DNA of 64,000 bases. It comes from Halarcobacter anaerophilus. GTDB taxonomy: Bacteria > Campylobacterota > Campylobacteria > Campylobacterales > Arcobacteraceae. The stretch's first letter is position 1. Every line of letters begins with the position of its first letter. Under the pieces are notes generated by a model. The model was not told where the DNA came from and searched no databases. It saw only the letters and a list, made by a program, of their open reading frames with translations. Shown in pieces: positions 20,945 to 61,677 of this stretch. The translations under genes and the position numbers were made by a program. The stretch is from assembly GCF_006459125.1 (NCBI RefSeq), contig NZ_CP041070.1, positions 744,001 through 808,000 of the forward strand. Direction: 5' to 3'.

Positions 20945-20955
20945 ATTTGCTCCTT

Positions 20956-21606: not shown

Positions 21607-21666
21607 ATTTCACTCCTTTTTAAAGTAGATTATAGTCTATTACAGTTTAAGTGCGTTTAAAATAAT

Positions 21667-43750: not shown

Positions 43751-44911
43751 TTATTTATTTTCTTCCAAAAGATGTTCATATCTTTTATCCGTTAATAGTT
43801 TTAAAAAGGCTACTAAAGCATCGATTTTTCTATCATTTTGTTTTTTTGCTTTTAATTCATCCAAAGATATAGTATCTTTTACTTCCGGTTCTTCCCAAGG
43901 TTTTTTTGTTTCCGGATTTATTTTTCTATCTTTATTGTTATATTTATCATAAAACTCAACAACTGTTCTTAAATCTTTAAAAACTCCGTTATGCATATAT
44001 GGAGCGGTTACGGCAACGTTTCTTAGTGTAGGAACTTTATATTTTCCTCTTTTGCTTTTGTCCGTAACCTCAGGATTTGCCAGTAATCCGTCGTCATGTA
44101 TTTTTACTCCGTTTTTAGCTCTTAAATTTTTGTTTTCAGGTACACCTATATTATGATATTCATAATTGGTAAAAGTTTCTCCTTTTTTATCTTCTCCTTT
44201 TAAAACATGGCAAGTTGCGCATGAGTTATTGTTATTTGAGAAGAACAAAGATCTTCCTAAATCTTCAAGAGGAGTCAAATCATATTTACCTTCTAAAAAT
44301 CTGTCATATTTTGAATCAAAAGGTGCAAACTCTTTTGTCATTTCAAACTTTTCGATAGAATCAGTCATAGCCCAATATGCTTTATCTACAGAGTTGAAAA
44401 TATTGTCTCCGTAAATAGTTTTTAGAGTATTAATATAATACTCATTCTCTTTTAATCTATCAACTACGCTTTTTTTGTCGGGCATTCCCATTTCAATAGG
44501 ATTTAAAGGAGGTCCGCCTGCTTGTCCTGCCAGTGTTGCTTCTCTACCGTCCCAAAATTGACCGCCTATGTATTTTTTCTTTTTTTTGTCATAATGGAAT
44601 TTAGGACTAAACATTGCGTAGGTTGCCGTAGGAGCTTGTCTGTCTCCTATTGATTTTCCGTTATCGCCCATAGATGCCATAGAGTTTACACCGTTGTTTC
44701 TGTCATCGGTAAAACCTTTTTGGGGATTATGGCAGGTTGCACAAGCCTGAGTTCTGTTTTTAGATAAATTTTTATCAAAAAAAAGCGCTTGTCCTAGTTG
44801 TTCTTTCATTTTTATTTTTTTTGCCAAATCTTCTTTTGTGGGTGTTGTATTTGAACAAGCATTTAAAAGAAATGCACTTAAAATAAAAGTGCCGAATTTC
44901 AAATATTTCAT
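43751..44911 (-). CDS. Di-heme cytochrome c peroxidase/MauG-family lipoprotein
   Basis: A 386-residue exported protein with lipobox LLNACS (Cys near 19) and two heme c sites, CATCH at about 57-61 and CATCH near 237. Other family marks are LFFDKNLSKN, FWDGREATLAGQAGGP and VAVTAPYMHNGVFKDLRTVVEFYDKY. It would reduce hydrogen peroxide or oxidise a periplasmic substrate. Its ATG overlaps the preceding hydroxylase stop by one base (TAATG), so it belongs to the imelysin operon. Confidence 0.92.
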   Translation of the reverse strand: MKYLKFGTFILSAFLLNACSNTTPTKEDLAKKIKMKEQLGQALFFDKNLSKNRTQACATCHNPQKGFTDDRNNGVNSMASMGDNGKSIGDRQAPTATYAMFSPKFHYDKKKKKYIGGQFWDGREATLAGQAGGPPLNPIEMGMPDKKSVVDRLKENEYYINTLKTIYGDNIFNSVDKAYWAMTDSIEKFEMTKEFAPFDSKYDRFLEGKYDLTPLEDLGRSLFFSNNNNSCATCHVLKGEDKKGETFTNYEYHNIGVPENKNLRAKNGVKIHDDGLLANPEVTDKSKRGKYKVPTLRNVAVTAPYMHNGVFKDLRTVVEFYDKYNNKDRKINPETKKPWEEPEVKDTISLDELKAKKQNDRKIDALVAFLKLLTDKRYEHLLEENK

Positions 44912-45813
44912 TAATTTTTCCTTCTTAAAATATTTATAAATGGATAAAATATAATTTTAATAAGCGACTCATAGTTTTTCATCTGTTCTTTTCTTAAACC
45001 GAATTTCAAAACATTCACTTCATGTGAAAGTTTTAAACTTCCGAAAACTCTGTCCCAAATAGCCAAATAACTTCCGTAATTTTTATTAAAATATTTTTTA
45101 CTGTGGTGTATTTGGTGTTGTTTTGGGGATATTAACCATTTTTCCAAAAATTTAAAGTATCCCAAAGGAATATGAGAGTGTCTTAAGTTAGAACCTAAAA
45201 GAGAAAAAACAAAAACAAAAATATTTGCTCCCAAGATTTCATAAAGTCCGATTTTTGAACCAAAAAAGTATATAAAAACTCCGGTTACCAAACCTATACT
45301 TAAAGAGTATCTAAAGCCGTATAAAATATTTTCAACGGGATGAACCCTGTAAAAAGTTAAAGGATTTAAAACTTTTGCACTATGATGTACTTTATGAAAA
45401 TCCCATAATAACGGGATTGTATGTAGAAATCTGTGAAGCCAATATCTAGTAAAGTCACTTACGACAAAGATTGTAATTGTATATAAAACAATAATCATTT
45501 CATAAGAGATAGATTGAATATGATTAAAACCAAAGTTATAGTATAAGTATTTATTTACTGAAAATGCTACTGTTTTTGCACTGATTACAATAGGAAAAAT
45601 CAGTGAAATTTTTATAAAGTATGATAATAAAAAGTAGTAATAATCAAGTTTTGAACTTGGATGCAACCAAAGTTTTGAACTGAAATTTACTCTTTTATAT
45701 TTTCTGTTAAAATAGATAAAAACTATTGCTATGGCAAAAGAAGAGAGTAGATAAATCCAATAAGTTCTTCTTCCTGAATTTATCAAATACTCAAATACTA
45801 AATAATCATTCAA
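44911..45813 (-). CDS. Sterol desaturase / fatty acid hydroxylase family membrane protein
   Basis: A 300-residue integral membrane di-iron enzyme. The His clusters are visible: HRFLHTIPLLWDFHKVHHS (near 128-146) and HQIHHSKKYFNKNYG (near 236). Members hydroxylate or desaturate lipids using oxygen and two irons. It has four to five hydrophobic segments. It sits in the middle of an iron-linked operon, 12 bases after the second imelysin gene. The substrate is unknown; sterols are unlikely in this group. Confidence 0.88.
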   Translation of the reverse strand: MNDYLVFEYLINSGRRTYWIYLLSSFAIAIVFIYFNRKYKRVNFSSKLWLHPSSKLDYYYFLLSYFIKISLIFPIVISAKTVAFSVNKYLYYNFGFNHIQSISYEMIIVLYTITIFVVSDFTRYWLHRFLHTIPLLWDFHKVHHSAKVLNPLTFYRVHPVENILYGFRYSLSIGLVTGVFIYFFGSKIGLYEILGANIFVFVFSLLGSNLRHSHIPLGYFKFLEKWLISPKQHQIHHSKKYFNKNYGSYLAIWDRVFGSLKLSHEVNVLKFGLRKEQMKNYESLIKIIFYPFINILRRKN

Positions 45814-45825
45814 TCTAAAATCCTC

Positions 45826-46812
45826 TTAATCCCCGTCTGCTTCAATAATTTTTGCATTAATAGAGAGCTCTTCAATAATTTCCAAAAACAGAATCAAATG
45901 AATATTGCTGACCTCTTCATATAACTCTTTAGCGTTTGAAAAATCGTCATTTTTTATATTTTTAACAAGTTTTAAAGAGTTGTTTATAGATTCTCTTAAA
46001 TCTTTCACCTGTGTACCATCGGTGATTTCAAGAAGATAATCTCCGTAATCTTTAAACTCTTTATTTTCGAAAATCTCTTTGAATGTCTCTAAAATAGCCT
46101 TTATAGCATTTGCGCTGTTTTTACTAAAATAGTATTCTGCTCTGCTGTTTAAAGGTTTCCCTTCATACTTTTTAGTCTCTCCTATTACGTCTCCTATTCT
46201 CCACTCTTTTAATTTATAAGTATTTTGGATAATTGCATTGATAGTAATAGAGTTGGCTTTTTTTAAATCACTTAAAAAGTTTTTCTCTTGGAGTTTATAT
46301 TCACTTTGTATCTCTAACATTAACTCTTTTAATCTATCAAGAATTGTTAAAACAATCAAATTAACTCTTTCATTTTTTATATCTTTTGAAAAAAGAGTAT
46401 ATTCTAAAGCATTGATTGATTTAAAAGAGTTTTTAAATAGGGCAATAGAGGGTGAATCACCGCTTTTTATCGCTCTGTCTAACTGTTTTGCAATATCTTC
46501 GCTGTTGTTGTGGAAAATATCGAAATATCTTGGAAGATCGATATAATCATCGTTTAAATCTCCCAACAAATAAAAAGCTTGAACACTTTTCCAAGATTTT
46601 ACCAATGAAGTAAAATCCTCTTTTGTTTTCTTCTCTTTTTTCTCTTCTACGGATTGCTTTAAAGTATCAATATCTTTTAAAGTTCTATTTACATCTTTTA
46701 ATATAACTTTTTCATAAAGATTTTTTAAAACCTCTTTGTTGTCTTTAGTATCATCTGCAACTGCAAAAAGTGATAATAAAGTAACTAATAATAAACTTTT
46801 AATTAATTTCAT
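45826..46812 (-). CDS. Imelysin-family periplasmic protein
   Basis: A 328-residue secreted protein with a signal peptide (LLLVTLLSLFAVADD). It is helical and has the imelysin phrases VKSWKSVQAFYLLGDLND (near 70), NALEYTLFSKD (near 133, in place of the classical G-x-H-x-x-E) and KEWRIGDVIGETKKYEGKP. Imelysins (peptidase M75, IrpA and EfeO relatives) are iron-regulated and thought to bind iron or act in its uptake. It lies two bases after the di-heme gene. Confidence 0.82.
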   Translation of the reverse strand: MKLIKSLLLVTLLSLFAVADDTKDNKEVLKNLYEKVILKDVNRTLKDIDTLKQSVEEKKEKKTKEDFTSLVKSWKSVQAFYLLGDLNDDYIDLPRYFDIFHNNSEDIAKQLDRAIKSGDSPSIALFKNSFKSINALEYTLFSKDIKNERVNLIVLTILDRLKELMLEIQSEYKLQEKNFLSDLKKANSITINAIIQNTYKLKEWRIGDVIGETKKYEGKPLNSRAEYYFSKNSANAIKAILETFKEIFENKEFKDYGDYLLEITDGTQVKDLRESINNSLKLVKNIKNDDFSNAKELYEEVSNIHLILFLEIIEELSINAKIIEADGD

Positions 46813-46813
46813 T

Positions 46814-48214
46814 TTATACCTCTTCTAAAAATTTAAGTAGTTTTTCTCTTTTACTTTTTTCAAGATTCATATAAGACTCTTTTATGTTTTGAGCCTCTCC
46901 TTGATGCCAAAGAATAGCTTCTTGGAATGTTCTTGCTCTTCCATCATGTAAAAGTCTGGGTTTTTTCCCGTTTATTTTTTCATGAAGTGCTAATCCCCAT
47001 AAAGGAGCCGTTCTCCACTCTGTGCCTGTTGCTCTAAATTCACTTCTTTTATCGGCTAAGCCTTCTCCCATATCATGAAGCAGCAGATCCGTAAAAGGAG
47101 CAATTTCTATTCCGCTTTTTGTTGTAAATGAAGATATATGACATTTGTTACAACCGATTTGCTTAAATATTCTTAGACCCTCTTTATACTCTTTTGTTTT
47201 TTCTGCCGTATATGTTTTTCTTTTTTCTACATAATAAGTTATTGCATCTAATCTTTCTTGTGTTATATCAAAAGGATCTCTTGCTTTAGGTGCTTTTTTA
47301 CACTCGATTTGTTTTGAAGTACAAGTATCAAAAGGGTAATAAACAGTTGTTAATCCCATATCGTTATTTGCAGCATCTGCCACTTGGTGTTTAACGGAAG
47401 TTATATTTGCTTTCCAGCTAAATCTTCCTAATTCAACTCTTTTTGTAATAGGTGAATAAGCATAATTTGCTTTTCCTGATATTCCGTCACTGTTTCTGTC
47501 AAATTCATCTTCGTTTTTAAGAATATCCTCTTTTGAAATATCTTCTAATAAACCTATACCGTTTAAAGAAGGTGCTAGTCTAAAAGTAAGAATTGAGTCT
47601 TTATGAAGTTCGCCGTATTGCAGCTGTTTTAAAGCATAATGGGGTTTTAAAAGAGTATCAACTTCTCCGTCAGGGAATGTTATTTGAATTTTCTCATAAG
47701 TAATACCGGCTTTTGCTTCAAAGTTTACACCGTGAACACCGTTTATTGATATTTGGTTTCCATAACTTGGTTCGGGTACTAATCCCATTTTTTCTATAAG
47801 GGCTTTATGCTCTTTAGAGTTATTACTCTTTATTGATAGTTTTGGAATAAGACTTCTTGAAAAATCACCGTTTTTATTATACAAATTTCCTCTTCCGTTG
47901 CCCGGATGGCAACTTGCACAGGTATTTGCATTAAACAAAGGACCTAAACCGTCTCTTGCAGTTGTAGCACTTGGAGCTTCAACCCAAGGAATTCTAAAAA
48001 AACTTTTTCCTAAAATAAATTTGTCGTACTGCTCATCACTAAGTTGTGATATTGGTTTAAGAAGTAAAGAGTTATTTTTATCAGTTGATAAATCTTTGCT
48101 TGAACTATTAACGGCAAAAAGCCCCATAGCAAAAATTGCTATAAGGCTTTTATTTAAGGCTTGTTTTGTAATCGAAAAATTAAATCTTAGTTTCTTCTGG
48201 ATCTGTAACATCAT
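46814..48214 (-). CDS. Di-heme oxidoreductase (DUF1111, thiol oxidoreductase-like)
   Basis: A 466-residue c-type cytochrome. A signal-like segment is at about 22-36 (LIAIFAMGLFAVN). Heme sites are CASCH in FNANTCASCHPGNGRG (near 100) and CNKCH in GCNKCHISSF (near 355). The C-terminal LWGLALHEKINGKKPRLLHDGRART and AILWHQGEA segments, in that order, are typical of the family. It is regularly found next to imelysin genes in Fur-controlled operons. Its start overlaps the upstream imelysin gene by 35 bases. Confidence 0.88.
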   Translation of the reverse strand: MMLQIQKKLRFNFSITKQALNKSLIAIFAMGLFAVNSSSKDLSTDKNNSLLLKPISQLSDEQYDKFILGKSFFRIPWVEAPSATTARDGLGPLFNANTCASCHPGNGRGNLYNKNGDFSRSLIPKLSIKSNNSKEHKALIEKMGLVPEPSYGNQISINGVHGVNFEAKAGITYEKIQITFPDGEVDTLLKPHYALKQLQYGELHKDSILTFRLAPSLNGIGLLEDISKEDILKNEDEFDRNSDGISGKANYAYSPITKRVELGRFSWKANITSVKHQVADAANNDMGLTTVYYPFDTCTSKQIECKKAPKARDPFDITQERLDAITYYVEKRKTYTAEKTKEYKEGLRIFKQIGCNKCHISSFTTKSGIEIAPFTDLLLHDMGEGLADKRSEFRATGTEWRTAPLWGLALHEKINGKKPRLLHDGRARTFQEAILWHQGEAQNIKESYMNLEKSKREKLLKFLEEV

Positions 48215-49523
48215 CTGTACTTAACGAAACTCCGTTTGCTTGTGCAACTGCAACCATTTGGTCACCTAATTTTCTCAACTCGTTTTTAAGTTTTACAATA
48301 ACTTTTGCTTGAGGATTATCAGGTCTTATTTGATAATCGAAGTGAGCAGTAGTTTTTGCTATTTTATCAATGCTTGCAATTTTTACTTCAATTGATTTCA
48401 TAAGAGCAATAATTTTTGCTTTTTCTTCAACTGAAACAGCATCTAAAAGAGAAGAACCGTAAGATTTACCCATATATGATGAAGTTAAAACATTTTTAAA
48501 TCCTAAATAGTTTGTAACAATATCTCTGTGTGTATTATCAGAAAAACAAGAGTGTTCATCTTCTTCTGACGGAGTTAATACAGCAACGGCAATTCTTTCG
48601 TTTGCAAGTTCTGATTTTATAAATACACCCATTCCTGCAATAATTTGTTTTAAAGCAGTATTTGTCGGAATATTTTTATTTGCATCTTTTCCTGTTAGTT
48701 TTCCTAAAAAGGCATTTTTATATAATCCGTTATCTTCCCACGCATTAGATACTGTTTCTAAATCATTAACAATTTTATCCGTTGATGCTTTTAGGTATGT
48801 CAATCTTCTTTGAGCGTTTTTATCTGTTGTAAAATCAGATAAAGGTCTTTGTCCCGCAGTTAAAGGTCCGTTTGTTATTGAATCTTTCATAAAGTTTGAA
48901 TAATCTTGATCTTGTCCCCAAAGTAAAAATTCAACTGCATGATAACCTGTAGATACATTTGCTTCTCCACCGTTTTCATTTAAAGCAGTAAGTGAATCAA
49001 TTGTGATTTTAGAAACATCAACTGCACTTGAATCTTCACCGCCTGGATTAAAACTACCTTTTGTATCGATAATATTTCCTGAAGTTGTTTTTCCGTCTGC
49101 ATCTGTTGTATAATCAATCATATTTTCATCTAAAGGCCAAGCATTGATTTGTCCTTCAAGTGCTCCGTAAGTATCTGCTACCCAACCTTCTTCTGCATCA
49201 ATAGGACCGTTTGAAAGTCTGAAAATTTCAGTTTGCCCGTAAGATTCTCTTGAAGTAAGCCAAGCTTTTTTTGCATTTTCAAGTGTTGTGCCAGTGGGAT
49301 TTTTAACAAAAGCATTAATTGCTGCTTGTAAAGCTTTTGCATCTTTTAGTGCATCACCGTAAGTATCTTGAGCAATTTTTGCATAAGAGTTTAATATATT
49401 TTCCGTTTTATTCTCAACTTTTATCGATGCTGTTTTTGTATTTTCAGAAGTTGTAGAACAACCTGCAAACGCTAATGCAGCTGCAAAACTTATAGAAGCT
49501 GTGATTAATTTCGTTTTTTTCAT
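48180..49523 (-). CDS. Imelysin-family lipoprotein (iron-regulated protein A type)
   Basis: A 447-residue lipoprotein with signal and lipobox (LAFAGCSTTSE, Cys near 21). It holds two imelysin repeats and the family signature GYHAVEFLLWGQDQD (near 189-203), with NAWPLDENMIDY upstream and YQIRPDNP near the C-terminus. Family members are iron-starvation-induced and bind iron at the G-x-H-x-x-E site. First gene of the minus-strand iron operon; a Fur-like site stands just upstream. Confidence 0.92.
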   Translation of the reverse strand: MKKTKLITASISFAAALAFAGCSTTSENTKTASIKVENKTENILNSYAKIAQDTYGDALKDAKALQAAINAFVKNPTGTTLENAKKAWLTSRESYGQTEIFRLSNGPIDAEEGWVADTYGALEGQINAWPLDENMIDYTTDADGKTTSGNIIDTKGSFNPGGEDSSAVDVSKITIDSLTALNENGGEANVSTGYHAVEFLLWGQDQDYSNFMKDSITNGPLTAGQRPLSDFTTDKNAQRRLTYLKASTDKIVNDLETVSNAWEDNGLYKNAFLGKLTGKDANKNIPTNTALKQIIAGMGVFIKSELANERIAVAVLTPSEEDEHSCFSDNTHRDIVTNYLGFKNVLTSSYMGKSYGSSLLDAVSVEEKAKIIALMKSIEVKIASIDKIAKTTAHFDYQIRPDNPQAKVIVKLKNELRKLGDQMVAVAQANGVSLSTDDVTDPEETKI

Positions 49524-49636
49524 TTAGTTTCCTTTTTATTATTTAAGAGAATGATATCTTAATTACTATTTTAATAATTAATATCAAGAATGTGGAGGAA
49601 TTCTATTATTATCAAGCTTAACAAACACTTAATACT

Positions 49637-49655
49637 AATAATGGTTATCAATAAA
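49637..49655 (-). promoter_or_regulatory. Fur-box-like site for the imelysin operon
   Basis: AATAATGGTTATCAATAAA, 13 of 19 to the Fur consensus, contains the shared 10-mer GTTATCAATA (49644-49653), about 115 bases upstream of the imelysin start. Confidence 0.5.
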
Positions 49656-49722
49656 AAGAAAAATAATACAAGAGAAAAATAACAGATTTATAAATGTTTA
49701 AGTTTATTAGATATATTATTAT

Positions 49723-49741
49723 AATAATGATTATCAAAATA
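49723..49741 (+). promoter_or_regulatory. Fur-box-like site before the 56-residue gene and the organelle-like operon
   Basis: AATAATGATTATCAAAATA, 14 of 19 to the Fur consensus, ends 16 bases before the start of the small gene. It could control that gene and the downstream ATPase operon. Confidence 0.6.
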
Positions 49742-49757: not shown

Positions 49758-49928
49758 ATGTCAGATTACAGAATAAGAGCGGAAATTAACAGGTTGGTGG
49801 AACAAAACAATATAGAAGATCCTAAAAAATCAATTTGCCCAATTATAAAAATCATAAAAATGAGACACAAGCAATTAGATACGAATAGAATTTTAAAAGT
49901 TGCAAAAGAGGTTTTTATAGAAGAGTAA
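49758..49928 (+). CDS. Small hypothetical protein under a Fur-like site
   Basis: A 56-residue protein, MSDYRIRAEINRLVEQNNIE and on to EVFIEE, basic and helical, with a single Cys (KSICPIIK, near 27). A strong ribosome site AAAGGAGA lies seven bases before the ATG. There is no membrane segment. The size, helices and place upstream of the ATPase operon suggest a small regulator or adaptor, which is inference. Confidence 0.65.
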   Translation: MSDYRIRAEINRLVEQNNIEDPKKSICPIIKIIKMRHKQLDTNRILKVAKEVFIEE

Positions 49929-50081: not shown

Positions 50082-52235
50082 ATGAACGACGAAATTATTA
50101 TAAAAAGCGTAGCAAACAACAGAGTCAGATTAAAATCCGACTTGTTTGCATTAAGTTCCAATTTGGAACTTATAGAAAATGAGTTTAAAGATATTTTTAT
50201 AGATTTTAGAAAAAATATTTCCTGTAAATCGATTATCTTTAAATATAACCTTAATATAACACTTGACAGTGTAATTGAGAGATTAAATAATTTATTTAAT
50301 ATAACTGCATCTATTCCTGCAAGTAAAGCTATATGCGGTACAAGTTGCAGCAGTTGTAGTTTGAAAAAGCATGATGAAAAGTCCTGGAAAAGAAAACTTT
50401 TTGAATTTGCTCTTTTAAGCGGTTATGCAATCTATATTTTTGTAAGTGAAAATATTTTAGGAGCAACAATTGCTTCAACTGCTTTTAGCTTAGTGGGAAT
50501 TATCTCTTTTGTAGCAGCAATTCCGCTTTTAAAAGAGTCTTTAGAGGATATAAAACAAAAAAGATTTACTCTTCAAACTTTTATGAGCGGAACACTTCTT
50601 CTTGCAATTTTCTTTGGAGAAGCAACGGCAGCTTTTGAAATTATCTATATTTTAAGAGGCGGAATGCTGCTTGAAGAGTATATTGCAAATAGATCAAGAC
50701 AAGAGATTCAAAATTTAGTTGAATTAGATGTAAAAAAAGTTTATGTTTTAGTTGATGATGTTGAGATAGAAGTAAATATAGAAGAGCTAAAACAAAACGA
50801 TATAGTTGTTTGCAGAAGCGGAGAAAAAATTCCCGTTGACGGAATAATTACCCAAGGAAGTGCTGAAATAAATGAAGCAATTATAAACGGAAGAAGCGAA
50901 CCTGAATATAAAAAAGAGTCAGATGAGGTCTTTGCGGGAACTGTTTGTGAGAGAGGAAGAGTTTTTATAAAAGTTATTGCTTTGGGAAATGAAACTTATA
51001 TCTCAAGAACAATGAGAGAAGTAGAACTCTCTTTAATGCAAAAATCTCCAAGTGAATTAGAAGCGGATAGATTGGCAAACAGACTTCTTAAACTTGGAAC
51101 AGCTTTAACAGTAGGTACTTTTTTATTAACAGGCTCTTTTAGTGCAGCCTTTTCCGTTATGATAATTATGTCTTGTCCTTGTGCAACGGTATTAGCTGCT
51201 TCAACGGCAATAAGCGGTGGAATTGCAAATGCTGCAAAACAAGGAATTTTAATAAAAGGCGGAGATGCCTTAGAAAATGTTAGTAAAAGTGAAGTTTTTT
51301 GTTTTGATAAAACAGGAACTTTGACAACAGGAAAACCCGTAATCACGGATATAATCTCTTTAAGCAATAAAGATGAAAAACTGTTATTAGAGTATGCTGC
51401 ATCGGCTGAATACAGAAATTCTCATCCTCTTGCAAATTCAATCGTAAAATATGCAGATGAAAAAAACATAGAGATAAATCAAAATATTTTAAGTGAAGTC
51501 ATTCCAGGTTTCGGAGTTAAATCAAAAATCGATGATAAAAGACTTCTAGTAGGTAACAAAGCTTTATTAAACAGATATAAAATTTCTTTAAAAGATTATA
51601 AAAATGTTAGTTCAAAACTACTAAACAGCGGCAAAACGGCAGTTTATATAGCATTGGACGATGAAATTTTAGGAGTTCTTGGCTTTACTCATGAAGTAAG
51701 AAAAGGAACAAAACAGATGATTGAGGATTTAAGACAAAGAGGAGTTAAACATATAGCTTTATTAACAGGTGATGAGGTTAAAGTGGCAAACGGTTTTGCT
51801 CTTGATTTCGGTTTTGATTCTGTTTTTGCAAATCAATCTCCTAAAGGCAAAGCCGATGCAATAGAAGAGTTGAAGAAAAAATACAAAAGCGTTGTTATGG
51901 TAGGAGATGGAGTAAATGATACTTATGCTATGAGTAAAGCAGATGTTGCAATCTCTTTTGCAGCAGGTGGAAGTGAAGCCGCTATTGCAGTATCGGATGT
52001 AGCAATCACACACTCACATCCCGAAGATATCGTTAATCTATATGATGTAAGTAAAAAAAGCTTGAATGTAGTAAATCAAAATTATTATATAGGAACAAGT
52101 ACAAATTTAGCGGGTGTTGCTTTGTCTGCCATGGGAAGATTAACCCCTGTAGGTGCGGGTTTGATCCATATCGGACATACAATAGGAATTATGGCAAACT
52201 CTTCAAGATTGGCTATTGATGATAATAATTCTTGA
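50082..52235 (+). CDS. P1B-type metal ATPase with SCPC channel motif and atypical N-G-R actuator loop
   Basis: A 717-residue heavy-metal P-type ATPase. Residues 1-80 form an HMA-like domain without CxxC but with the basic NNRVRLK, then a Cys cluster C85-x3-C89-x2-C92 before TM1. The channel motif is SCPCA (364-368), the phosphorylated Asp is D409 in FDKTGTLT, the HP locus is NSHPLANS and the hinge GDGVNDTYAMS (canonical: GDGxNDAPAL). The actuator motif, normally T-G-E-S, is N-G-R-S (269-272), which should block dephosphorylation. It may be a regulatory or structural subunit, or move metal unusually. It opens the operon; the second ATPase in the operon has a standard TGES. Specificity is not certain; by context iron. 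Confidence 0.87.
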   Translation: MNDEIIIKSVANNRVRLKSDLFALSSNLELIENEFKDIFIDFRKNISCKSIIFKYNLNITLDSVIERLNNLFNITASIPASKAICGTSCSSCSLKKHDEKSWKRKLFEFALLSGYAIYIFVSENILGATIASTAFSLVGIISFVAAIPLLKESLEDIKQKRFTLQTFMSGTLLLAIFFGEATAAFEIIYILRGGMLLEEYIANRSRQEIQNLVELDVKKVYVLVDDVEIEVNIEELKQNDIVVCRSGEKIPVDGIITQGSAEINEAIINGRSEPEYKKESDEVFAGTVCERGRVFIKVIALGNETYISRTMREVELSLMQKSPSELEADRLANRLLKLGTALTVGTFLLTGSFSAAFSVMIIMSCPCATVLAASTAISGGIANAAKQGILIKGGDALENVSKSEVFCFDKTGTLTTGKPVITDIISLSNKDEKLLLEYAASAEYRNSHPLANSIVKYADEKNIEINQNILSEVIPGFGVKSKIDDKRLLVGNKALLNRYKISLKDYKNVSSKLLNSGKTAVYIALDDEILGVLGFTHEVRKGTKQMIEDLRQRGVKHIALLTGDEVKVANGFALDFGFDSVFANQSPKGKADAIEELKKKYKSVVMVGDGVNDTYAMSKADVAISFAAGGSEAAIAVSDVAITHSHPEDIVNLYDVSKKSLNVVNQNYYIGTSTNLAGVALSAMGRLTPVGAGLIHIGHTIGIMANSSRLAIDDNNS

Positions 52236-52300
52236 TTTATATTAAGTTAAGTTTAAAATAGAAGTGTAGATAATTGTGAATAATAAAAAGGAATATAAAA

Positions 52301-52615
52301 TTGATTACAACAGAAAAATTAATAGAGATTAGTTCTTATTTAACTTTGGTTCACCATATAAAAGGAAGAATAAGAGTTAGGGTAAATCCCAAAATAAAAG
52401 AACAGAGTCAAAATATAACTTTAGAAGATATTGAAGATATTCCTAATAAAATAGATGGAATAAAAAAAATAAAGATAAATAAAATTGTAGGTTCAATAAC
52501 AATTGAATATGATAATAAAATATTTCCTGATAAATTATGGAAAGATTTGATTGGTCAAGAAAATTTAGAAGAGATTGCAGAAATTTTAAACAAGCTTGAA
52601 AAAGAGGTGGCATAA
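52301..52615 (+). CDS. HMA-like (HMA2-type) Arg-rich protein
   Basis: A 104-residue single-domain protein, TTG start with AAAAGGA seven bases upstream. The ferredoxin-like HMA fold is suggested by VHHIKGRIRVRVNP (near 21-34), IDGIKKIKINKIVGSITIEYD and helices. The metal-binding CxxC is absent and replaced by G-R-x-R-x-R, as in small HMA2 proteins that accompany P1B ATPases. The same basic beta-strand pattern is at the N-terminus of both ATPases of this operon (NNRVRLK; SKRARF). It may act as a docking or regulatory partner. Confidence 0.75.
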   Translation: MITTEKLIEISSYLTLVHHIKGRIRVRVNPKIKEQSQNITLEDIEDIPNKIDGIKKIKINKIVGSITIEYDNKIFPDKLWKDLIGQENLEEIAEILNKLEKEVA

Positions 52616-53406
52616 TGCAAGAAAATATTCAAGAAAACACAGTAACGCAGGAACAACTGGAAACAAAGCAAGATAGTATAATAAAAAATTTTGATGAAGA
52701 TCTGCTAAAAGGTTTAAGAGTAGATCCAAACTATAATGAACCGGTTTTAGATCAAGTCTTAAGAATAGCTATCTATGATGAGTATCATGCTTATGAAACA
52801 TATAGAAAAATATTGGAAAAATTTGGTAACGTATCACCTTTTTCAAATATTTTAGAAGCAGAAATAAGACATTATCAAGAGTTGGCTTTAATATTGGAAA
52901 AACATCAAGTTCCTATGCCCGTAAATGACTGGGAAGGTAAAATCGAAGCCCCGAACTCTTTATTGGAAGCTTCTGAAATAGCAGTTGCAGCAGAAATCGA
53001 TAATATAAAAATGTATGATAATCTAATCTCTTATGCTAAAGATTATCCAGATGTTTTAGACACTCTTTACAGAATGCAAGCTGCTTCTTATAATAATCAT
53101 CTTCCAAGTTTCAGACAGGCTGTAATTAATCATTCAAGCAGTGATACACAAGTAAACGTAAATGAAATTTATCAACAATATTCGCAACATAATATAGATG
53201 AAGCAATTTCAAAAATGGATGAATTCGGTCAAATGGCTTCAAAATTTGCTTCAGGACAAGTTACCCAAGAAGATATGTTAAAGCTTTTAAGTAATACAAA
53301 TCTCTCTTTTATAGGCGGAGCTTTGTTAGGAGCCGTAGGTGCAGGTGTTTTATCTCAAATGACGAAAGAAAAAAGCGAAGATATCCAAGAAGACGAGGAG
53401 GTGTAA
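52615..53406 (+). CDS. DUF2202-like ferritin-fold protein with C-terminal membrane anchor
   Basis: A 263-residue protein. A four-helix di-iron domain spans about 45-170: YDEYHAYETYRKILEKFG (E56), FSNILEAEIRHYQEL (E83, H86), AVAAEIDNIKMYDN (E127) and ASYNNHLPSFRQAV (H162), as in DUF2202 ferritin-like proteins. Residues 230-248 form a Gly/Ala-rich membrane helix (SFIGGALLGAVGAGVLSQM), followed by an acidic tail, which is unusual for a ferritin. It could oxidise ferrous iron at a membrane surface. The start overlaps the HMA-like gene stop by one base (TAATG). The iron-oxidation role is inferred. Confidence 0.85.
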   Translation: MQENIQENTVTQEQLETKQDSIIKNFDEDLLKGLRVDPNYNEPVLDQVLRIAIYDEYHAYETYRKILEKFGNVSPFSNILEAEIRHYQELALILEKHQVPMPVNDWEGKIEAPNSLLEASEIAVAAEIDNIKMYDNLISYAKDYPDVLDTLYRMQAASYNNHLPSFRQAVINHSSSDTQVNVNEIYQQYSQHNIDEAISKMDEFGQMASKFASGQVTQEDMLKLLSNTNLSFIGGALLGAVGAGVLSQMTKEKSEDIQEDEEV

Positions 53407-53407
53407 T

Positions 53408-53500
53408 ATGCCGTTAATTCCGTTTGCCTTAGGAGCTGTTATAGGCAGTTCTTTAGTGTTGTTATTTTCAAAAAAGAAAAAATCTAAAAAGGAGAAATAA
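53408..53500 (+). CDS. Thirty-residue membrane peptide
   Basis: A 30-residue peptide MPLIPFALGAVIGSSLVLLF followed by a basic tail (SKKKKSKKEK). One hydrophobic Gly-rich helix. It starts two bases after the ferritin-like gene, with the GAGGAGG ribosome site 9 bases upstream, and overlaps the next gene by one base (TAATG). The tight fit on both sides supports a real gene despite its size. Confidence 0.7.
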   Translation: MPLIPFALGAVIGSSLVLLFSKKKKSKKEK

Positions 53501-53754
53501 TGTTACCGTTCATAGCAGGTATAGCAGCAGGAGCAGTTGCAGTTGTTGCATACAATAATAATAAAAAAATCAGAAAAAACGTAAATGAAGGTGCAAAAAA
53601 AGCCAAACATCTTGCCCAAGAGGGATATGAAAAAACAAAAGAGTTTGCAAAAGACGTAAAAGCAAGCGTTGATGAAAAAGTCGAGTCTTTAAAATCAAAA
53701 AAAGAAGAGAAGAAAATTGAAAAAGAGGGAGAAACAGCCAATGGCAACGAGTAG
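53500..53754 (+). CDS. Membrane-anchored amphipathic helix protein (YtxH-like)
   Basis: An 84-residue protein: one N-terminal Gly/Ala-rich membrane helix (LPFIAGIAAGAVAVVAY, residues 2-18) and a long charged amphipathic helix with repeats such as EGAKKAKHLAQEGYEKTKEF, like YtxH-type and LEA-like proteins. It overlaps neighbours at both ends. A membrane-coating or membrane-shaping role is an inference. Confidence 0.75.
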   Translation: MLPFIAGIAAGAVAVVAYNNNKKIRKNVNEGAKKAKHLAQEGYEKTKEFAKDVKASVDEKVESLKSKKEEKKIEKEGETANGNE

Positions 53755-54088
53755 TTTATCAATTAATACAGGTGCACCAAGAAATGTAACAGGGCATGTA
53801 GTAAGCGGTTCATTAGCAGCAGGGGCACTTGCTGCGGCTATAAATTATAATAAATATAAAAACGGTGAAATTCAAAAGAGTGAAGCTATTAACAGTTCAA
53901 TTAAACTCTCTGCTCAAGGTGGAATTGCAACAGGAAGTGCAATTGCAGCGGCTAATTATTTAGGGCAGGGAAATATAGTTAATATGCTTACTGCAATTTC
54001 AGTAGGTGTTATGGGTGTTTATGCAGTGGAAAAAGTAAGTGATAAATTAACTCAAAGAAAAGAAATCGAAGCAGAAGAGGAAAAATAA
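53741..54088 (+). CDS. Small two-helix Gly/Ala-rich membrane protein
   Basis: A 115-residue protein (MATSSLSINTGAPRN) with two Gly/Ala-rich hydrophobic segments, about 20-40 (VVSGSLAAGALAAAINY) and about 62-92 (GGIATGSAIAAANYLG and ISVGVMGVYAVEKV). The start at 53741 follows the ribosome site GAGGGAG; an earlier in-frame ATG at 53717 lies deeper in the previous gene. The architecture resembles the small Gly-rich proteins found in magnetosome and other organelle membranes, but no sequence family is recognised. Confidence 0.75.
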   Translation: MATSSLSINTGAPRNVTGHVVSGSLAAGALAAAINYNKYKNGEIQKSEAINSSIKLSAQGGIATGSAIAAANYLGQGNIVNMLTAISVGVMGVYAVEKVSDKLTQRKEIEAEEEK

Positions 54089-54423
54089 TGCAAAATAATA
54101 CAATAGATACAAATCCATATATAAATAATCAAAATCAGGCACAACAAGATCTTAACTTAGCAAATCAAAACCCGTATATAAGCGATAATACGACTGCTGC
54201 AAATACAAATTCAAGTCTTTTAGGCAGTTTTGATACAAATAAATTTTTATTAGGTGCCGTAATAGGAGCTGTGGGAGCTTATGTTCTTACAAATGAAAAA
54301 GCACAAAAAACAATTTTTAAAACTATTGCAAAAGGAAGTGCTTTGTTCGGTGCAGGAATCGAAGAGATGAAAGAGAGATTTGAAGACGCAAAAGCTGAAA
54401 TGGAAGCTCAAAAAGAGGATTAA
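54088..54423 (+). CDS. Membrane protein with NPYI repeats and YtxH-like helix
   Basis: A 111-residue protein. A polar Asn/Gln-rich N-terminus carries two copies of N-P-Y-I (NPYINN near 9; NPYISD near 28), which could be protein-binding motifs. Residues 50-68 (KFLLGAVIGAVGAYVL) form a glycine-zipper membrane helix and the rest an amphipathic charged helix (GIEEMKERFEDAKAEME). It overlaps the previous stop by one base and ends eight bases before the second ATPase. Confidence 0.75.
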   Translation: MQNNTIDTNPYINNQNQAQQDLNLANQNPYISDNTTAANTNSSLLGSFDTNKFLLGAVIGAVGAYVLTNEKAQKTIFKTIAKGSALFGAGIEEMKERFEDAKAEMEAQKED

Positions 54424-54431
54424 ACAGATTT

Positions 54432-56558
54432 ATGAGTTGTAATATAAAACTTTTACATAAAACTTCCAAAAGAGCAAGATTTTATTGTGAAAGCTTAAAA
54501 AATGAAGAGTATAACACTTCTTCTTTAATTCAATATTTAGAGTCCATTAACGGAATAAATAAAGTACGGATAAATAAAAAAATAGGTTCTATAGTTTTTG
54601 AACATGACGGCAGTGCGTTAAATACTATTAGAGATATTCTTTTGGGACTTGATGTAAACAAATATAAAATATGTGATACCTTCAAAGGTTCATGTATAGA
54701 TTGTATAGATGAGAGTGAACCTAGTTTAAACGGTGTAATAAGAGCAAGCAGTGTTTTAGTAGCAGAACGATTTATCTCAAATGATTTGGCAAAATTTCTT
54801 CTAACAACTGTTGCTGCAAAACCTCTTTTAGTAGAAGGAACAAAAGAGCTTTTTAAAGAGGGATTAACTTCTAAAGTTCTTGAAGCAACTGCTGTTTCGG
54901 TTAGTATTGCACGAAAAGATTATTTAGCTGCAAATAGTACCAATGCTATGCTTGAACTTGGCGAATATATTGAAGAGACTACGGTTCATAAAAGTGATGA
55001 TTTGATAAAAGAGTTGGCAAAACCAAATGTAACCAAAGCCTGGGTTGAGTTTGAAGAGAATGGAAAATTAACCCAAAAACTTATAAATACAAGTGAACTT
55101 AAAGTAGGGGATATAGTAATAGTAGGTGCTGGCGATACAATAGCCGTTGACGGTCATGTACTTACGGGAAATGCTTCTGTTAATCAAGTCTCAATGACAG
55201 GCGAGAGTGAACCTGTAGCAAAACAAAGAGGTGACAGGGTTATCTCAGGAACCGTTATAGAAGACGGAAGATTAAAAATCTGGGCTGAATACGTAGGAGA
55301 AGATACTGCAACTGCAAGAATAAAAAATTATATTGTAAGTTCTTTAAACGAAAAATCTTCTATAGGACTAAAAGCTACGAAACTAGCTGATAAATTAGTG
55401 CCTGTAACTTTAGGTTTGGCAGGAGTCTCTTATCTTATAAACAAAGATTTTGAGAGTGTTGCAGCTGTGCTTCAAGCTGATTACTCTTGTGCCCTTAAAC
55501 TAGCAACTCCCGTTGCTTTTAAATCTTCAATTTCAAAAGCGGGAAAAGACGGAATTATGATTAAAGGTGCAAAAGCTATTGAAGCTTTACATAGTGCCGA
55601 TACTTTTGTTTTTGATAAAACAGGAACCTTGACTTACGGTCATTTAGAAGTAGAATCTATTAACTCTTTTGATGAAAAGTGGGAAGAAGATGATATCTTA
55701 AATTTGACGGCAAGTGCGGAAGAACACTATTTTCATCCTGTTGCTGAAGCTGTTGTTAAAGCCGCAAAAGAGAAAGGTTTTGTTCATATGCATCACGAAG
55801 AGGTTGAATTTATTGTTGCACACGGCGTAAAAACTATTGTAAATGATAAGGAGGTCGTAATAGGAAGCAGACACTTTTTAGAAGATGATGAACAAATTGA
55901 TTTTTCTAATTATGAAGATAAAATAGAACAATGCCTATTGGACGGAAAAACTATTCTTTATGTAGGATATGACAAAAAACTTTTGGGTACTATAGGTATG
56001 AGAGATAAAGTTCGTGAAAATGCCAAAGATGTACTTCAAAAATTAAAATTATCGGGTGTAAAAAATATCGTAATGCTAACAGGTGATATAAAAGAGAAAG
56101 CGGAAGCTTTAGCTTTTGAGCTGGGAGTTGATACGGTGTATGCAAATATGAGACCCACTGATAAAGCAAATATAATAAATAAATTAAAAGAGCAGGGTTC
56201 TAAAATAGCTTTTGTAGGTGACGGTATAAATGATGCACCGGCTTTAATGAGTGCAGATGTCGGAATAAGTATGAGCAAAGGTGCCGATATTGCAAAAGCT
56301 ACAGCCGATATTGGATTATTAAAAGATGATTTGGTAGCTATTGCGGAAGTAAAAGAGTTGGCAAATAAAACAATGAAACTAATAAAATATAATTTTAATG
56401 CCACAGTAGGAATTAACAGTTTGATTCTAACAGGTGCTACCATCGGATTGTTTACCCCTATTACCACAGCTGTTTTACATAACGGAACGACTATAGGTTT
56501 ACTCTTTAATTCAATGAAGGGTGTTAGTATTAAAAATAGTATAGAAAATTCTAAATAA
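54432..56558 (+). CDS. P1B-type metal ATPase with SCA channel motif (P1B-6-like)
   Basis: A 708-residue ATPase. Residues 1-75 form an HMA-like domain lacking CxxC, with KRARF near 13, then a Cys cluster C81, C88, C91 (CDTFKGSCIDC). The channel helix reads DYSCALKLATPV (350-361) in place of CPC, the SCA-type pattern I associate with the P1B-6 class that includes FezB of ferrosomes. Catalytic parts are standard: TGESEP (256-261), D395 in FDKTGTLT, HP in HYFHPVAEA and GDGINDAPALM. Few strong hydrophobic segments lie between residues 100 and 180, so topology is unusual. Likely an iron pump loading a compartment, by context and class; not proven. Confidence 0.87.
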   Translation: MSCNIKLLHKTSKRARFYCESLKNEEYNTSSLIQYLESINGINKVRINKKIGSIVFEHDGSALNTIRDILLGLDVNKYKICDTFKGSCIDCIDESEPSLNGVIRASSVLVAERFISNDLAKFLLTTVAAKPLLVEGTKELFKEGLTSKVLEATAVSVSIARKDYLAANSTNAMLELGEYIEETTVHKSDDLIKELAKPNVTKAWVEFEENGKLTQKLINTSELKVGDIVIVGAGDTIAVDGHVLTGNASVNQVSMTGESEPVAKQRGDRVISGTVIEDGRLKIWAEYVGEDTATARIKNYIVSSLNEKSSIGLKATKLADKLVPVTLGLAGVSYLINKDFESVAAVLQADYSCALKLATPVAFKSSISKAGKDGIMIKGAKAIEALHSADTFVFDKTGTLTYGHLEVESINSFDEKWEEDDILNLTASAEEHYFHPVAEAVVKAAKEKGFVHMHHEEVEFIVAHGVKTIVNDKEVVIGSRHFLEDDEQIDFSNYEDKIEQCLLDGKTILYVGYDKKLLGTIGMRDKVRENAKDVLQKLKLSGVKNIVMLTGDIKEKAEALAFELGVDTVYANMRPTDKANIINKLKEQGSKIAFVGDGINDAPALMSADVGISMSKGADIAKATADIGLLKDDLVAIAEVKELANKTMKLIKYNFNATVGINSLILTGATIGLFTPITTAVLHNGTTIGLLFNSMKGVSIKNSIENSK

Positions 56559-56567
56559 AGAAGCAAT

Positions 56568-57248
56568 ATGGAAAATCAAATAATAGAACAAAAAGAGAAA
56601 AAGAGTTATCTGCCGGAAATAGATTTAGATACGAAAAAAGAGCTGGCTAAAATAGGAATGACGGCTTCAATGGGAATCACAGTTGCTACTTCAATGTATA
56701 TGAAAACAAAATTTATGAAAAGACTTCATGTAGTAGCAGGTGTTGCCCTTGTAGGCTTCTCTTATTGGCATCATACTTTATATCAGCCCTCAAAAAAGAA
56801 GACTAAAAAAGAGCTGTCAAAAATAGATAACAGTGTAAAAGAGCTTGAGCAGACAAAAAATGGGCAGACAGAAGAGGAACAAGTAGAAGAAGAAAACTTG
56901 GCAATCTCTTTAAATGACTTTTTTGTTGAATTAGCAGTAAAAGGAAAATTAACCCATAAAGAGTCCCAATCTTTTAAAGATAAAATTGATACTCTGTTGT
57001 CAAATTATGAAGTACCTTCAATAAATATTTTATTGGATATTAGAGAGTTTGAAGGAATAGAGTTAAAAGGTTTATGGGATGAAATCCTTTTTACGGTTAA
57101 ACATATTAAAGAGATAAAAAAAGTCAGTATTGTAGGTCATAGTAAGTTTGAGGAATATTTTATAAATATTGCTCATAAAATGATCTCTTTTAAATTAAAA
57201 TATTTTGAGGATTATTCCAAAGCCAGAGAGTGGCTTTTATCAAACTAA
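56568..57248 (+). CDS. Membrane-anchored protein with C-terminal SpoIIAA/STAS-like domain
   Basis: A 226-residue protein. The N-terminus (about 30-70) has two short hydrophobic segments (IGMTASMGITVATSMYM; LHVVAGVALVGFSYWHH), then a Glu-rich linker (TEEEQVEEE), and residues about 105-226 resemble SpoIIAA-like/STAS domains (INILLDIREFEGIELKGLWD, VSIVGHSKFEEYFINIA, KAREWL). STAS domains bind partner proteins or lipids. The last gene of the operon, nine bases after the second ATPase; a short hairpin follows. Confidence 0.75.
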   Translation: MENQIIEQKEKKSYLPEIDLDTKKELAKIGMTASMGITVATSMYMKTKFMKRLHVVAGVALVGFSYWHHTLYQPSKKKTKKELSKIDNSVKELEQTKNGQTEEEQVEEENLAISLNDFFVELAVKGKLTHKESQSFKDKIDTLLSNYEVPSINILLDIREFEGIELKGLWDEILFTVKHIKEIKKVSIVGHSKFEEYFINIAHKMISFKLKYFEDYSKAREWLLSN

Positions 57249-58919: not shown

Positions 58920-61436
58920 TTATTCTCCTTTATTAAGATTTTTGTCATAAATGTTATATTGACCTTGTGCTTTTGATTGTAAGCCGCCTTTCCAGTTTAT
59001 TCTTTTACTTGGAACTAAACCTATTATCAATGCAATTGAGACAATCGTAATGTAAAAGTAGGTCATAGCTTCTACACCGCTCCAGTTGTTTATCAATCCC
59101 ACACTAAATACGATTGAAGATAAAACAATTCCTAAAAGTACAGGAAAAAATATTGCAAAAACCATCCATTTGTAACTGTTTGTCTGCATTTTTACTACAA
59201 TCATTGTTGCAATACAAGGAGGAGTTAAAAGCATAAAAATTATAATTGCAGCTGCATGAAGAGGAGTATATCCGCTGTTTAATGCCATTGCTTCTTCTGC
59301 TCTCATATCATCTGCTTTATTGTTTTCATAAATTGAACCAAGCGTTGCAACCGCACTCTCTCTTGCTGCAAAAGAGCTTAGAAAGGCTACATTTATTTTC
59401 CAATCAAATCCTGCGTATTGGGTTACGGGTTCGATTGCTCTACCTGCCATACCAAGAAGAGAGTTTTCTACTTTTTCGTTTTTTATTGCTCTTAAAATTC
59501 TTTTTCTGTCTGTTGATAATTTTCTAAGAGCTTTATTTACGGTTTTAGCCTCTTTATCTCTTTTTGGTTTTATAAATTTAAAATATGATTCATTTAACGC
59601 AAGATAATCTTCGTCAATAGCTTTTGCCGAATCTTTTGACGTAGCAACCATTCTTTTTGTTCTATACCCGTCATAATAGTTTAAAAGTTCAGATACCTCT
59701 TCTTTTGTATTAACCTCTTCATAATATTTGCTTTTTTTAACTTTGTTATCAAAAGAGCTTAATGCTTTATCAAGAGATTTTTCATATTTAGCCTCTGCTT
59801 CTTTATTTAATCCCGGAAGTTGCAACATTGCAAAAAGAACTATAGCAACTGCCAATACTATGGTTACGACTTTTTTAATATATATCCAAACTCTTTGTGA
59901 GGCTCTTATAATTACACCTTTGAAAGTAGGCATATGATAAGGAGGCAGTTCCATTAAAAAAGGTGCTGTCTCTCTTGCTTTTAAAACAGTTGTAGTTAAT
60001 AATTTTGCCACAATAAGAGCAACAAAAAGAGTAACGGTTGAGATAAAAAACATCATCAAAGCCATATCAGGTTTAAAAAAAGCACCCAGCAAAAGGGTAT
60101 AAAAAGGAACTTTTGCCAAACAGTTCATATATGGAACGGAAAAAATAGTAGCCATTCTAGCTCTGTCATCCGCAATTCCTTTTGTAGCCATAACACCAGG
60201 AACCGCACAACCTCCGACCATTGCCCCTCCTAAAACCAAAGGAAGAGTTGACTGTCCGTGAAGACCGAATCTTTTAAAGACTCTATCTAAAATAAAAGCC
60301 ATTCTAGGCATATATCCAACATCTTCCATAATCGCAATAAGAGCAAAAAGAATAAAAAATATGGGAATATAGTTCATAAGTGCATTTGCACTATTTACCA
60401 TCCATATACCAAAATCCGTAATCATAGGAACATCTATCAAATTAGCAGGAGGTAAGATATCTATTACAAAGTTTTTAATTGCCGCAAGTATAGGCCAAGT
60501 GTAATCCGTAAGTTTATATCCCCAGACAATTGAAATTTCATACACTAAAAACATAATCAAAATCAAAATAGGGAGAGCCAGAAATCTATTTAAAAGGATT
60601 TTATCTGCTTTATCCGTTAAAGTCTCTTGTCCTATTTTTTTCTCTTTTACTGCTTTGTGATAAATTATATCGGCAGATTCATATCTAACCGAAGCTAGAA
60701 AAGAAGGAGAGTCTTTATCATATTTTTCATGAAAAATATTTTCTTCTTTTTTTACATCCTCTTCAATATTTGAAAACTGATGTTTTAAATGTTCGGTGAT
60801 ACTTGTATCACCTTCTAAAAGTTTAATTGCAAGCCATCTTTTATTTAAAGGTGAAGTGCTTGAAGAAATTTTTTCTTCAATAGCATTGATATGGGGTTCC
60901 AGCTCTTCATAATTGATTTTAAAATCTTCATATTGTTGATTATTTGAAGCAATATTTACGATATTTTGCATTATCTCTTCTGATCCGATTCCTTTTGAAC
61001 CTGTAGCTTCAATAACGGGGCAATTAAGCATTTTTGCTATTTTTTTAGAATCAATTTCAATCTCTCTTCTTTTTGCTACATCCATCATATTTAATACAAC
61101 AATAACCGGAATTCCTATTTCAAGAAGCTGAAAAGTTAAGTATAAATTTCTTTTAATATTTGAAGCATCTACAACATTTACAATTACATCGGGATTTTCA
61201 TCTATTATAAACTCTTTTGCGACTCTCTCTTCTAAAGAGTAAGAACTAAAAGAGTAAGTTCCTGGTAAATCAACCATCTCTATTCTATGTTCATTGTATG
61301 TGAAAAATCCTGTTTTTTTATCTACCGTAACACCTGGATAGTTGGCAATATGTTGTTCAATTCCACTTACCATATTAAAAATTGTGGATTTACCGCAATT
61401 TGGTTGTCCTGCAAGCGCTACTTTAATTTTCTTCAT
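58920..61436 (-). CDS. feoB: Ferrous iron transport GTPase FeoB
   Basis: An 838-residue inner-membrane ferrous iron importer. The N-terminal G domain has G1 GQPNCGKST (residues 10-18), G3 DLPGTYSFSSYS (near 57), G4 NMMD (near 115), and a GDI-like helical part. The membrane core has the two gate motifs with Cys, GGCAVPGVMATKGI (near 411) and PPCIATMIVVKMQT (near 739). An extra loop of about 120 residues (about 545-665, Lys/Glu-rich) lies between gate regions. It overlaps feoA by 14 bases. Confidence 0.97.
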   Translation of the reverse strand: MKKIKVALAGQPNCGKSTIFNMVSGIEQHIANYPGVTVDKKTGFFTYNEHRIEMVDLPGTYSFSSYSLEERVAKEFIIDENPDVIVNVVDASNIKRNLYLTFQLLEIGIPVIVVLNMMDVAKRREIEIDSKKIAKMLNCPVIEATGSKGIGSEEIMQNIVNIASNNQQYEDFKINYEELEPHINAIEEKISSSTSPLNKRWLAIKLLEGDTSITEHLKHQFSNIEEDVKKEENIFHEKYDKDSPSFLASVRYESADIIYHKAVKEKKIGQETLTDKADKILLNRFLALPILILIMFLVYEISIVWGYKLTDYTWPILAAIKNFVIDILPPANLIDVPMITDFGIWMVNSANALMNYIPIFFILFALIAIMEDVGYMPRMAFILDRVFKRFGLHGQSTLPLVLGGAMVGGCAVPGVMATKGIADDRARMATIFSVPYMNCLAKVPFYTLLLGAFFKPDMALMMFFISTVTLFVALIVAKLLTTTVLKARETAPFLMELPPYHMPTFKGVIIRASQRVWIYIKKVVTIVLAVAIVLFAMLQLPGLNKEAEAKYEKSLDKALSSFDNKVKKSKYYEEVNTKEEVSELLNYYDGYRTKRMVATSKDSAKAIDEDYLALNESYFKFIKPKRDKEAKTVNKALRKLSTDRKRILRAIKNEKVENSLLGMAGRAIEPVTQYAGFDWKINVAFLSSFAARESAVATLGSIYENNKADDMRAEEAMALNSGYTPLHAAAIIIFMLLTPPCIATMIVVKMQTNSYKWMVFAIFFPVLLGIVLSSIVFSVGLINNWSGVEAMTYFYITIVSIALIIGLVPSKRINWKGGLQSKAQGQYNIYDKNLNKGE

Positions 61437-61677
61437 TCATTTTTTCCTCTATCTCTATTAGTCGGGCTTCGCTTTTTCTTACACTTAAATGATAATTATG
61501 TAGTTTTAACTCCATTGGATCAAAAAGAGGAGCTTCTCTTATTACTTCTATTTCTACATTATTTACAAAGCCCATATCTAAAAGTTTGTGTAAGAGTTTG
61601 CCTTTTGCATGTAGTTTTCTTACTCTTGCTTTTTTACCTTTTGGAAGAATATCCAGGGTTTTAACTTTTGCATTCAT
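61423..61677 (-). CDS. feoA: FeoA-like ferrous iron transport accessory protein
   Basis: An 84-residue SH3-like protein (TLDILPKGKKARVRKLHAKG; LLDMGFVNNVEIEVIREAPL; LHNYHLSVRKSEARLI), the FeoA fold that binds and modulates FeoB. It precedes feoB with an overlap of 14 bases. Confidence 0.92.
   Translation of the reverse strand: MNAKVKTLDILPKGKKARVRKLHAKGKLLHKLLDMGFVNNVEIEVIREAPLFDPMELKLHNYHLSVRKSEARLIEIEEKMNEEN

Follow-up and report, generated by a model that had tools for sequence, protein, structure and literature searches.

In the 64,000-nucleotide stretch of the Halarcobacter anaerophilus genome analyzed here (contig NZ_CP041070.1, positions 744,001 to 808,000, referred to below as the window; the genome is complete and 3.0 Mb in size), nine co-directional genes on the + strand, at positions 50082 to 57248, probably form a Fur-regulated ferrosome-type (fez-type) operon. 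We give this reading a probability of roughly 0.7; it rests on gene content and gene order and on a comparison with published fez genes that runs through an operon from the same genus. An earlier, sequence-only reading had described nine tightly packed genes with a longest gap of 65 bases and 1-base overlaps, and a check of the open reading frames indeed found them all: the widest intergenic gap lies between 52235 and 52301, several junctions overlap by 1 base and one by 14 bases. The majority of the nine proteins matched known families in Pfam and NCBIfam profile searches.

The published fez locus of Rhodopseudomonas palustris comprises six genes, RPA2333 to RPA2338, and ferrosomes have been reported for that operon (PMC12016538). 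A scan of named genomes revealed a six-gene operon in Rhodopseudomonas sp. BR0M22 (locus L164), in the order HMA_2 plus hairpin, HMA_2, YtxH-like protein Y1, MamC-like protein, YtxH-like protein Y2 and P1B-type ATPase. Its type of ATPase lies at 2.49 to 2.55 Mb on two complete 5.3-Mb Rhodopseudomonas chromosomes, which we take to be about the expected place of gene 2333 among some 4,800. Since genus, gene number and chromosomal position agree and the runner-up ATPase of the L164 genome reaches only 36% identity, we infer that L164 is the fez operon. The second ATPase of the window, ATP2 (54432 to 56558), which carries an N-terminal HMA_2 domain, is 53% identical over 577 amino acids to the L164 ATPase and has the channel motif ADYSCALKLATP and an intact TGE motif. 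In the ATPase tree, in which the Priestia, Cereibacter and Vibrio sequences sit on long branches, ATP2 falls into one clade with the Rhodopseudomonas and Azospirillum operon ATPases (97/96). A place among Cu or Zn exporters had been named beforehand as evidence against the reading; ATP2 grouped apart from the Cu/Zn-type P1B pumps encoded in its own genome.

The neighboring small genes agree with this placement. With hidden Markov models, counterparts of the HMA_2 protein (52301 to 52615, TTG start, PF19991 with E=1.2e-10), of Y1 (53500 to 53754, PF12732 with E=3e-5, under the cut-off), of the MamC-like protein (53741 to 54088, NF038051 with E=4e-9, below the curated cut-off) and of Y2 (54088 to 54423) were found in the Rhodopseudomonas-type operon, so that both operons have one HMA_2 protein, one MamC-like protein and two YtxH-like proteins in common. 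A plasmid tblastn search with ATP2 led to operons sharing small genes in Azospirillum (46% identity, six genes), Vibrio and Cereibacter, and within a small sequence set Y2 matched proteins of these operons with E=3e-13 to 4e-20. Y1, the MamC-like protein, Y2 and a 30-codon basic peptide with a single transmembrane segment (53408 to 53500), which was seen only in the close relatives L033 to L036, are all Gly/Ala-rich. The fez-like operon of Cereibacter azotoformans (L137:4191-8659) is located on a conjugative plasmid beside FeoA and TonB receptor genes.

The last gene of the operon (56568 to 57248) encodes protein S, a membrane hairpin fused to a SpoIIAA-like STAS domain (E=2e-20, at about 56925 to 57236). 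The label STAS-like membrane protein given to it before covers its added domain, S being a DUF4405-like hairpin to which STAS was joined. In most orthologues S is a hairpin of 70 to 95 residues alone, STAS having been gained in the clade of the window and a few others. STAS was also considered as a core part and rejected, because most orthologues stop after the hairpin. The DUF4405 match was weak, below the curated cut-off, in 8/8 members tested; two histidines were invariant in all 67 sequences, and the first genes of the Rhodopseudomonas and Azospirillum operons terminate in a similar hairpin. FezC is a DUF4405-like heme b protein whose heme sites are thought to form by dimerization (PMC11334425), and we read S, whose invariant histidine pair resembles that of this cytochrome, as its likely counterpart. 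In one relative (G058, L034:10081-10377), the hairpin gene has 98 codons and lacks STAS, while in L035, a near relative, the gene is complete with 222 codons; the short gene possibly arose from a frameshift.

Compared with the Rhodopseudomonas-type operon (RPA2333 to RPA2338, via L164), the window thus has in common a FezB-clade ATPase with ADYSCALKLATP, HMA_2, two YtxH-like proteins, a MamC-like protein, a DUF4405-like hairpin and an iron context. It differs in that the hairpin, fused to HMA_2 in Rhodopseudomonas, is here a separate gene carrying STAS, and it adds a DUF2202 ferritin-like gene, a further ATPase (ATP1) and the 30-codon peptide. The proposal of a distinct organelle class is not supported by this comparison, because the six-gene Rhodopseudomonas/Azospirillum operon contains equivalents of the small genes and of the supposed STAS protein. 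As to the parts thought to lie outside known fez sets, ATP1 and the STAS extension are indeed lineage specific, as is otherwise only the 30-codon peptide, but the ferritin-like gene also occurs in betaproteobacterial fez-like operons. The operons of Thauera, Rhodoferax and Azoarcus have the same order of HMA_2, DUF2202, Y1, MamC-like, Y2 and FezB-like ATPase but lack ATP1, and several have lost the diiron ligands. Desulfovibrio magneticus and Clostridioides difficile have shorter ferrosome gene sets, which are likened here by description. Shared with these are a P1B ATPase with one or more small membrane proteins and a DUF4405-like FezC (PMC11334425). No report of ferrosomes in Campylobacterota was found in the literature searched, which is weak evidence of absence.

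Conservation of the gene order in related genomes, on which the sequence-only reading had made itself dependent, was borne out. We mapped 73 Campylobacterota loci (72 fetched plus the window) spanning several families. Since the loci were picked by one gene, the remaining genes are an independent test, and HMA_2, ferritin-like protein, Y1, MamC-like protein, Y2 and ATP2 were all present in the same order in 72/73; in the single exception, L113, two genes were missed by the profiles. HMA_2 and Y1 are kept in all loci whose gene order was mapped. The recurrence of the same order throughout the phylum puts the locus beyond chance. Of 101 genomes of the family, 63 had the ferritin-like protein. 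Across the phylum, the MamC-like protein was found in at least 127 of the 397 genomes (25/68 genera), a lower bound since an operon present in one genome was missed at that threshold. Judged by gene content and order, the operon is spread across the phylum Campylobacterota. The best plasmid match to ATP2 was on an Arcobacter plasmid (64%). Two Arcobacter isolates obtained from chicken meat have the core operon on plasmids of 133 kb (L138, CP129951.1:123888-133549, and CP134847.1), and the operon is therefore able to move between replicons.

An iron role is supported by the surroundings of the operon, as had been proposed from a Fur-like site upstream and iron genes on both sides. Overlapping Fur-box-like sites at 49717 to 49741 matched GATAATGATAATCATTATC at 15/19 positions in two registers and are among the three best matches of the window; a second pair, with 14/19 in two registers, lies at 49631 to 49655 in the divergent intergenic region. 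Sites of at least 15/19 were found in 11% of the upstream regions of the 73 orthologous operons but in only 0.7% of shuffles, and Fur is known to repress the fez genes of C. difficile (PMC12574912). On one side, feoB and feoA (PF02421, PF04023) are encoded on the - strand at 58920 to 61677. On the other side, an imelysin/DHOR/imelysin/FA-hydroxylase/MauG cluster, assigned by Pfam, lies on the - strand at 43751 to 49523; it is divergent from the operon, and the Fur-like intergenic region is common to both. Among the 73 loci, a Fur-family gene was found in 31, feo genes in 17 and a nearby imelysin gene in 9. Since at least two further Pfam Ferritin-family proteins are encoded in the genome, the operon is not its sole iron store.

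The ferritin-fold membrane protein recognized in the sequence-only reading (52615 to 53406) proved to be a DUF2202/MJ0754-type diiron protein with a C-terminal Gly-zipper membrane anchor, the transmembrane segment being at residues 228 to 246. It has the four-helix fold and diiron ligands of DUF2202 ferritin-like proteins: it matched MJ0754 in the PDB by sequence (E=1e-6) and by fold, 14/20 family members matched the DUF2202 profile, and the ligand set E56, E83, H86, E121, E127 and H162 is kept in the aligned relatives of the window. Unlike MJ0754 and other DUF2202 proteins, it has an extra tail region in addition to the anchor. E83/H86 are lost in parts of the Campylobacterota and in about half of the Pseudomonadota members, and a catalytic (ferroxidase) role is therefore not universal. 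The idea that the ferritin is unique to the Campylobacterota operon was rejected, since the gene is also present in 18 of 67 Pseudomonadota fez-like operons. Cereibacter has a proline-rich protein bearing only the same C-terminal anchor; thus, what stays constant may be the anchor rather than the ferritin domain.

The magnetosome model NF038051 was matched by 19/20 members of the MamC-like family. The score of 36.6 bits, against a curated equivalog cut-off of 100 bits, marks a homologue and not an equivalog. Alignment by hhalign to MamC of Magnetospirillum sp. SS-4 gave 92% probability (E=6e-7, 35% identity over 91 columns), whereas the reversed sequence gave 0.8% and 40 shuffles at most 1.1%. 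The Campylobacterota profile aligned with that of the MamC-like proteins of Pseudomonadota fez-like operons at 98% (E=1.5e-13). NF038051 found a match in 8/14 control genomes at E≤1 but in none at 0.01; low-complexity glycine-zipper similarity was dropped as the source of the match because no controls remained at 0.01 and both shuffles and reversal failed. The alphaproteobacterial versions gave no direct match to MamC, and the Campylobacterota and Vibrio proteins form the bridge between them. The AlphaFold model had a pLDDT of 90; Foldseek against the PDB returned nothing significant, and fold comparison adds nothing here. These alignments show that the MamC-like protein is, by sequence, homologous to magnetosome MamC; this homology does not by itself imply a shared function. 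Like MamC (Mms13), it has hydrophobic helices with an intervening loop; the differences are the score below the cut-off and the lack of other magnetosome genes alongside. No other mam gene product is among the nine proteins, and elsewhere in the genome the search covered mamC only. Magnetospirillum sp. SS-4 has both a true mamC and a fez-like operon, and the two are separate. No report of MamC homologues outside magnetotactic bacteria was found in the literature searched, again weak evidence of absence.

The first gene of the operon (50082 to 52235) encodes ATP1, a P1B-type ATPase by TIGR01525, motifs and tree, with a CxxCxxC-type N-terminal linker and the channel motif SCPC[AS]T[VI]LAAS. Across all 16 aligned orthologues, NGR replaces the actuator motif TGE and serine the proline after CPC, while DKTGT and GDGxND are retained; HIGHT-type histidines in transmembrane helix 8 and a Cys-rich linker after the N-terminal region are further features of this set. 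In P-type ATPases, the glutamate of TGE drives dephosphorylation. Without it, the cycle of ATP1 is predicted to be slowed or blocked, and a regulatory or structural role would follow. ATP1 was found in 19/397 genomes, in 19/19 directly upstream of the operon, and is monophyletic in the tree, in which the joining of Priestia to ATP1 is not trustworthy. The best matches were at most 33% identical in 26 Pseudomonadota genomes with fez-like operons and at most 32% identical on plasmids; as sampled, ATP1 is a Campylobacterota-only clade. Upstream of it, a 56-codon open reading frame on the + strand (49758 to 49928), a possible leader of the operon, had no Pfam or NCBIfam match; it is kept in front of ATP1 in L036 and L038 and may be the tenth gene of the operon.

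Several points weigh against a ferrosome-type operon. The published fez genes were reached only via a relative of the same genus, the DUF4405 scores of S are under the curated cut-off, the loss of ligands in some relatives means that ferroxidase activity cannot be general, and an iron pump in the plasma membrane without vesicles would be expected to give much the same sequence picture. The last point leads to a platform for efflux of iron or of metals more broadly, located in the inner membrane, in which small proteins cluster the P1B ATPase without any organelle, as PacL proteins cluster mycobacterial CtpC. Small YtxH-like and HMA_2 proteins do accompany the P1B ATPase, and HMA_2-ATPase operons without the other parts exist, for example, on Priestia pBM400. 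Against this speak the position of ATP2 in the FezB clade, the completeness of the fez-type gene set, in which the FezC-like hairpin is also represented, and the ferrosomes reported for the six-gene operon of R. palustris (PMC12016538). We consider such an efflux platform improbable, at somewhat less than one chance in five.

Resistance to Zn, Cd or Cu would fit the CPC motif kept in ATP1 and the fact that each of the two ATPases passes the TIGR01525 model and the broad model TIGR01512; yet their scores fall well short of the equivalog cut-offs for ZntA and CopA, neither groups with the canonical P1B pumps of the genome, and the Fur/Feo/imelysin context points to iron, which makes such an operon very unlikely. 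Just as little can be said for a distinct mineral-forming organelle nearer to magnetosomes than to ferrosomes: the MamC homologue speaks for it, but no second magnetosome relative was seen among the nine proteins, the remaining parts have their matches in fez-type operons, and mamC of strain SS-4 stands apart from the fez-like operon there. The ferrosome-type reading is favored by the FezB-clade ATPase, the shared small genes, the Fur/Feo context and the conserved order, and the sequence-only reading had pointed the same way.

If the locus is a fez-type operon, ATP2 would transfer Fe(II) from the cytosol into vesicles derived from the inner membrane, and the HMA_2 protein together with the HMA_2 domain of ATP2 would handle the metal at the cytosolic face. 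The small glycine-zipper proteins could assemble closely around the ATPase and give the vesicle membrane its shape or its coat, and the hairpin of S would dimerize, bind heme b and pass electrons across that membrane, thereby setting the Fe(II)/Fe(III) state. The DUF2202 protein, held in the membrane by its tail, may act there as a ferroxidase or buffer iron; lacking a signal peptide, it probably faces the cytosol. A possible task of the MamC-like protein is to template the mineral or to set its size. As an accessory P1B ATPase whose catalysis is altered, ATP1 would most likely serve as a regulator, as a gate or as a structural partner and not as an ordinary pump.

Two further observations concern the rest of the window. 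Adjoining the imelysin/MauG iron cluster, a TonB-dependent receptor is split on the - strand into two open reading frames (plug, 42831 to 43634; barrel, 41754 to 42728; 41754 to 43634 overall) and looks broken. At 18725 to 22266 on the - strand, a LapD-like EAL/GGDEF protein is encoded with two tandem LapG-like peptidases, one of which (21667 to 22266) has GAGDSED where the other has GAGDCED and thus seems to lack the catalytic cysteine.

What appears to be new here is a phylum-wide fez-type operon that includes a ferritin-like protein of the DUF2202 family, a homologue of MamC and an unusual accessory ATPase. A larger claim, to which we give somewhat less than an even chance, is that one ancestral membrane protein is common to ferrosomes and magnetosomes, the MamC family having come from, or having a common origin with, a core ferrosome protein, and that Campylobacterota have also evolved a second P1B ATPase, which is defective in dephosphorylation and functions solely within the ferrosome machinery. 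Ferrosomes have so far been known from a handful of species; if the reading is true, lipid-bounded iron storage would extend to the whole phylum Campylobacterota. With a ferritin-like diiron protein in the same machine, the two modes by which iron is known to be stored may work together. ATP1 raises the question of what a P-type ATPase does without its dephosphorylation glutamate, and the relationship to MamC would make a link between ferrosomes and magnetosomes testable.

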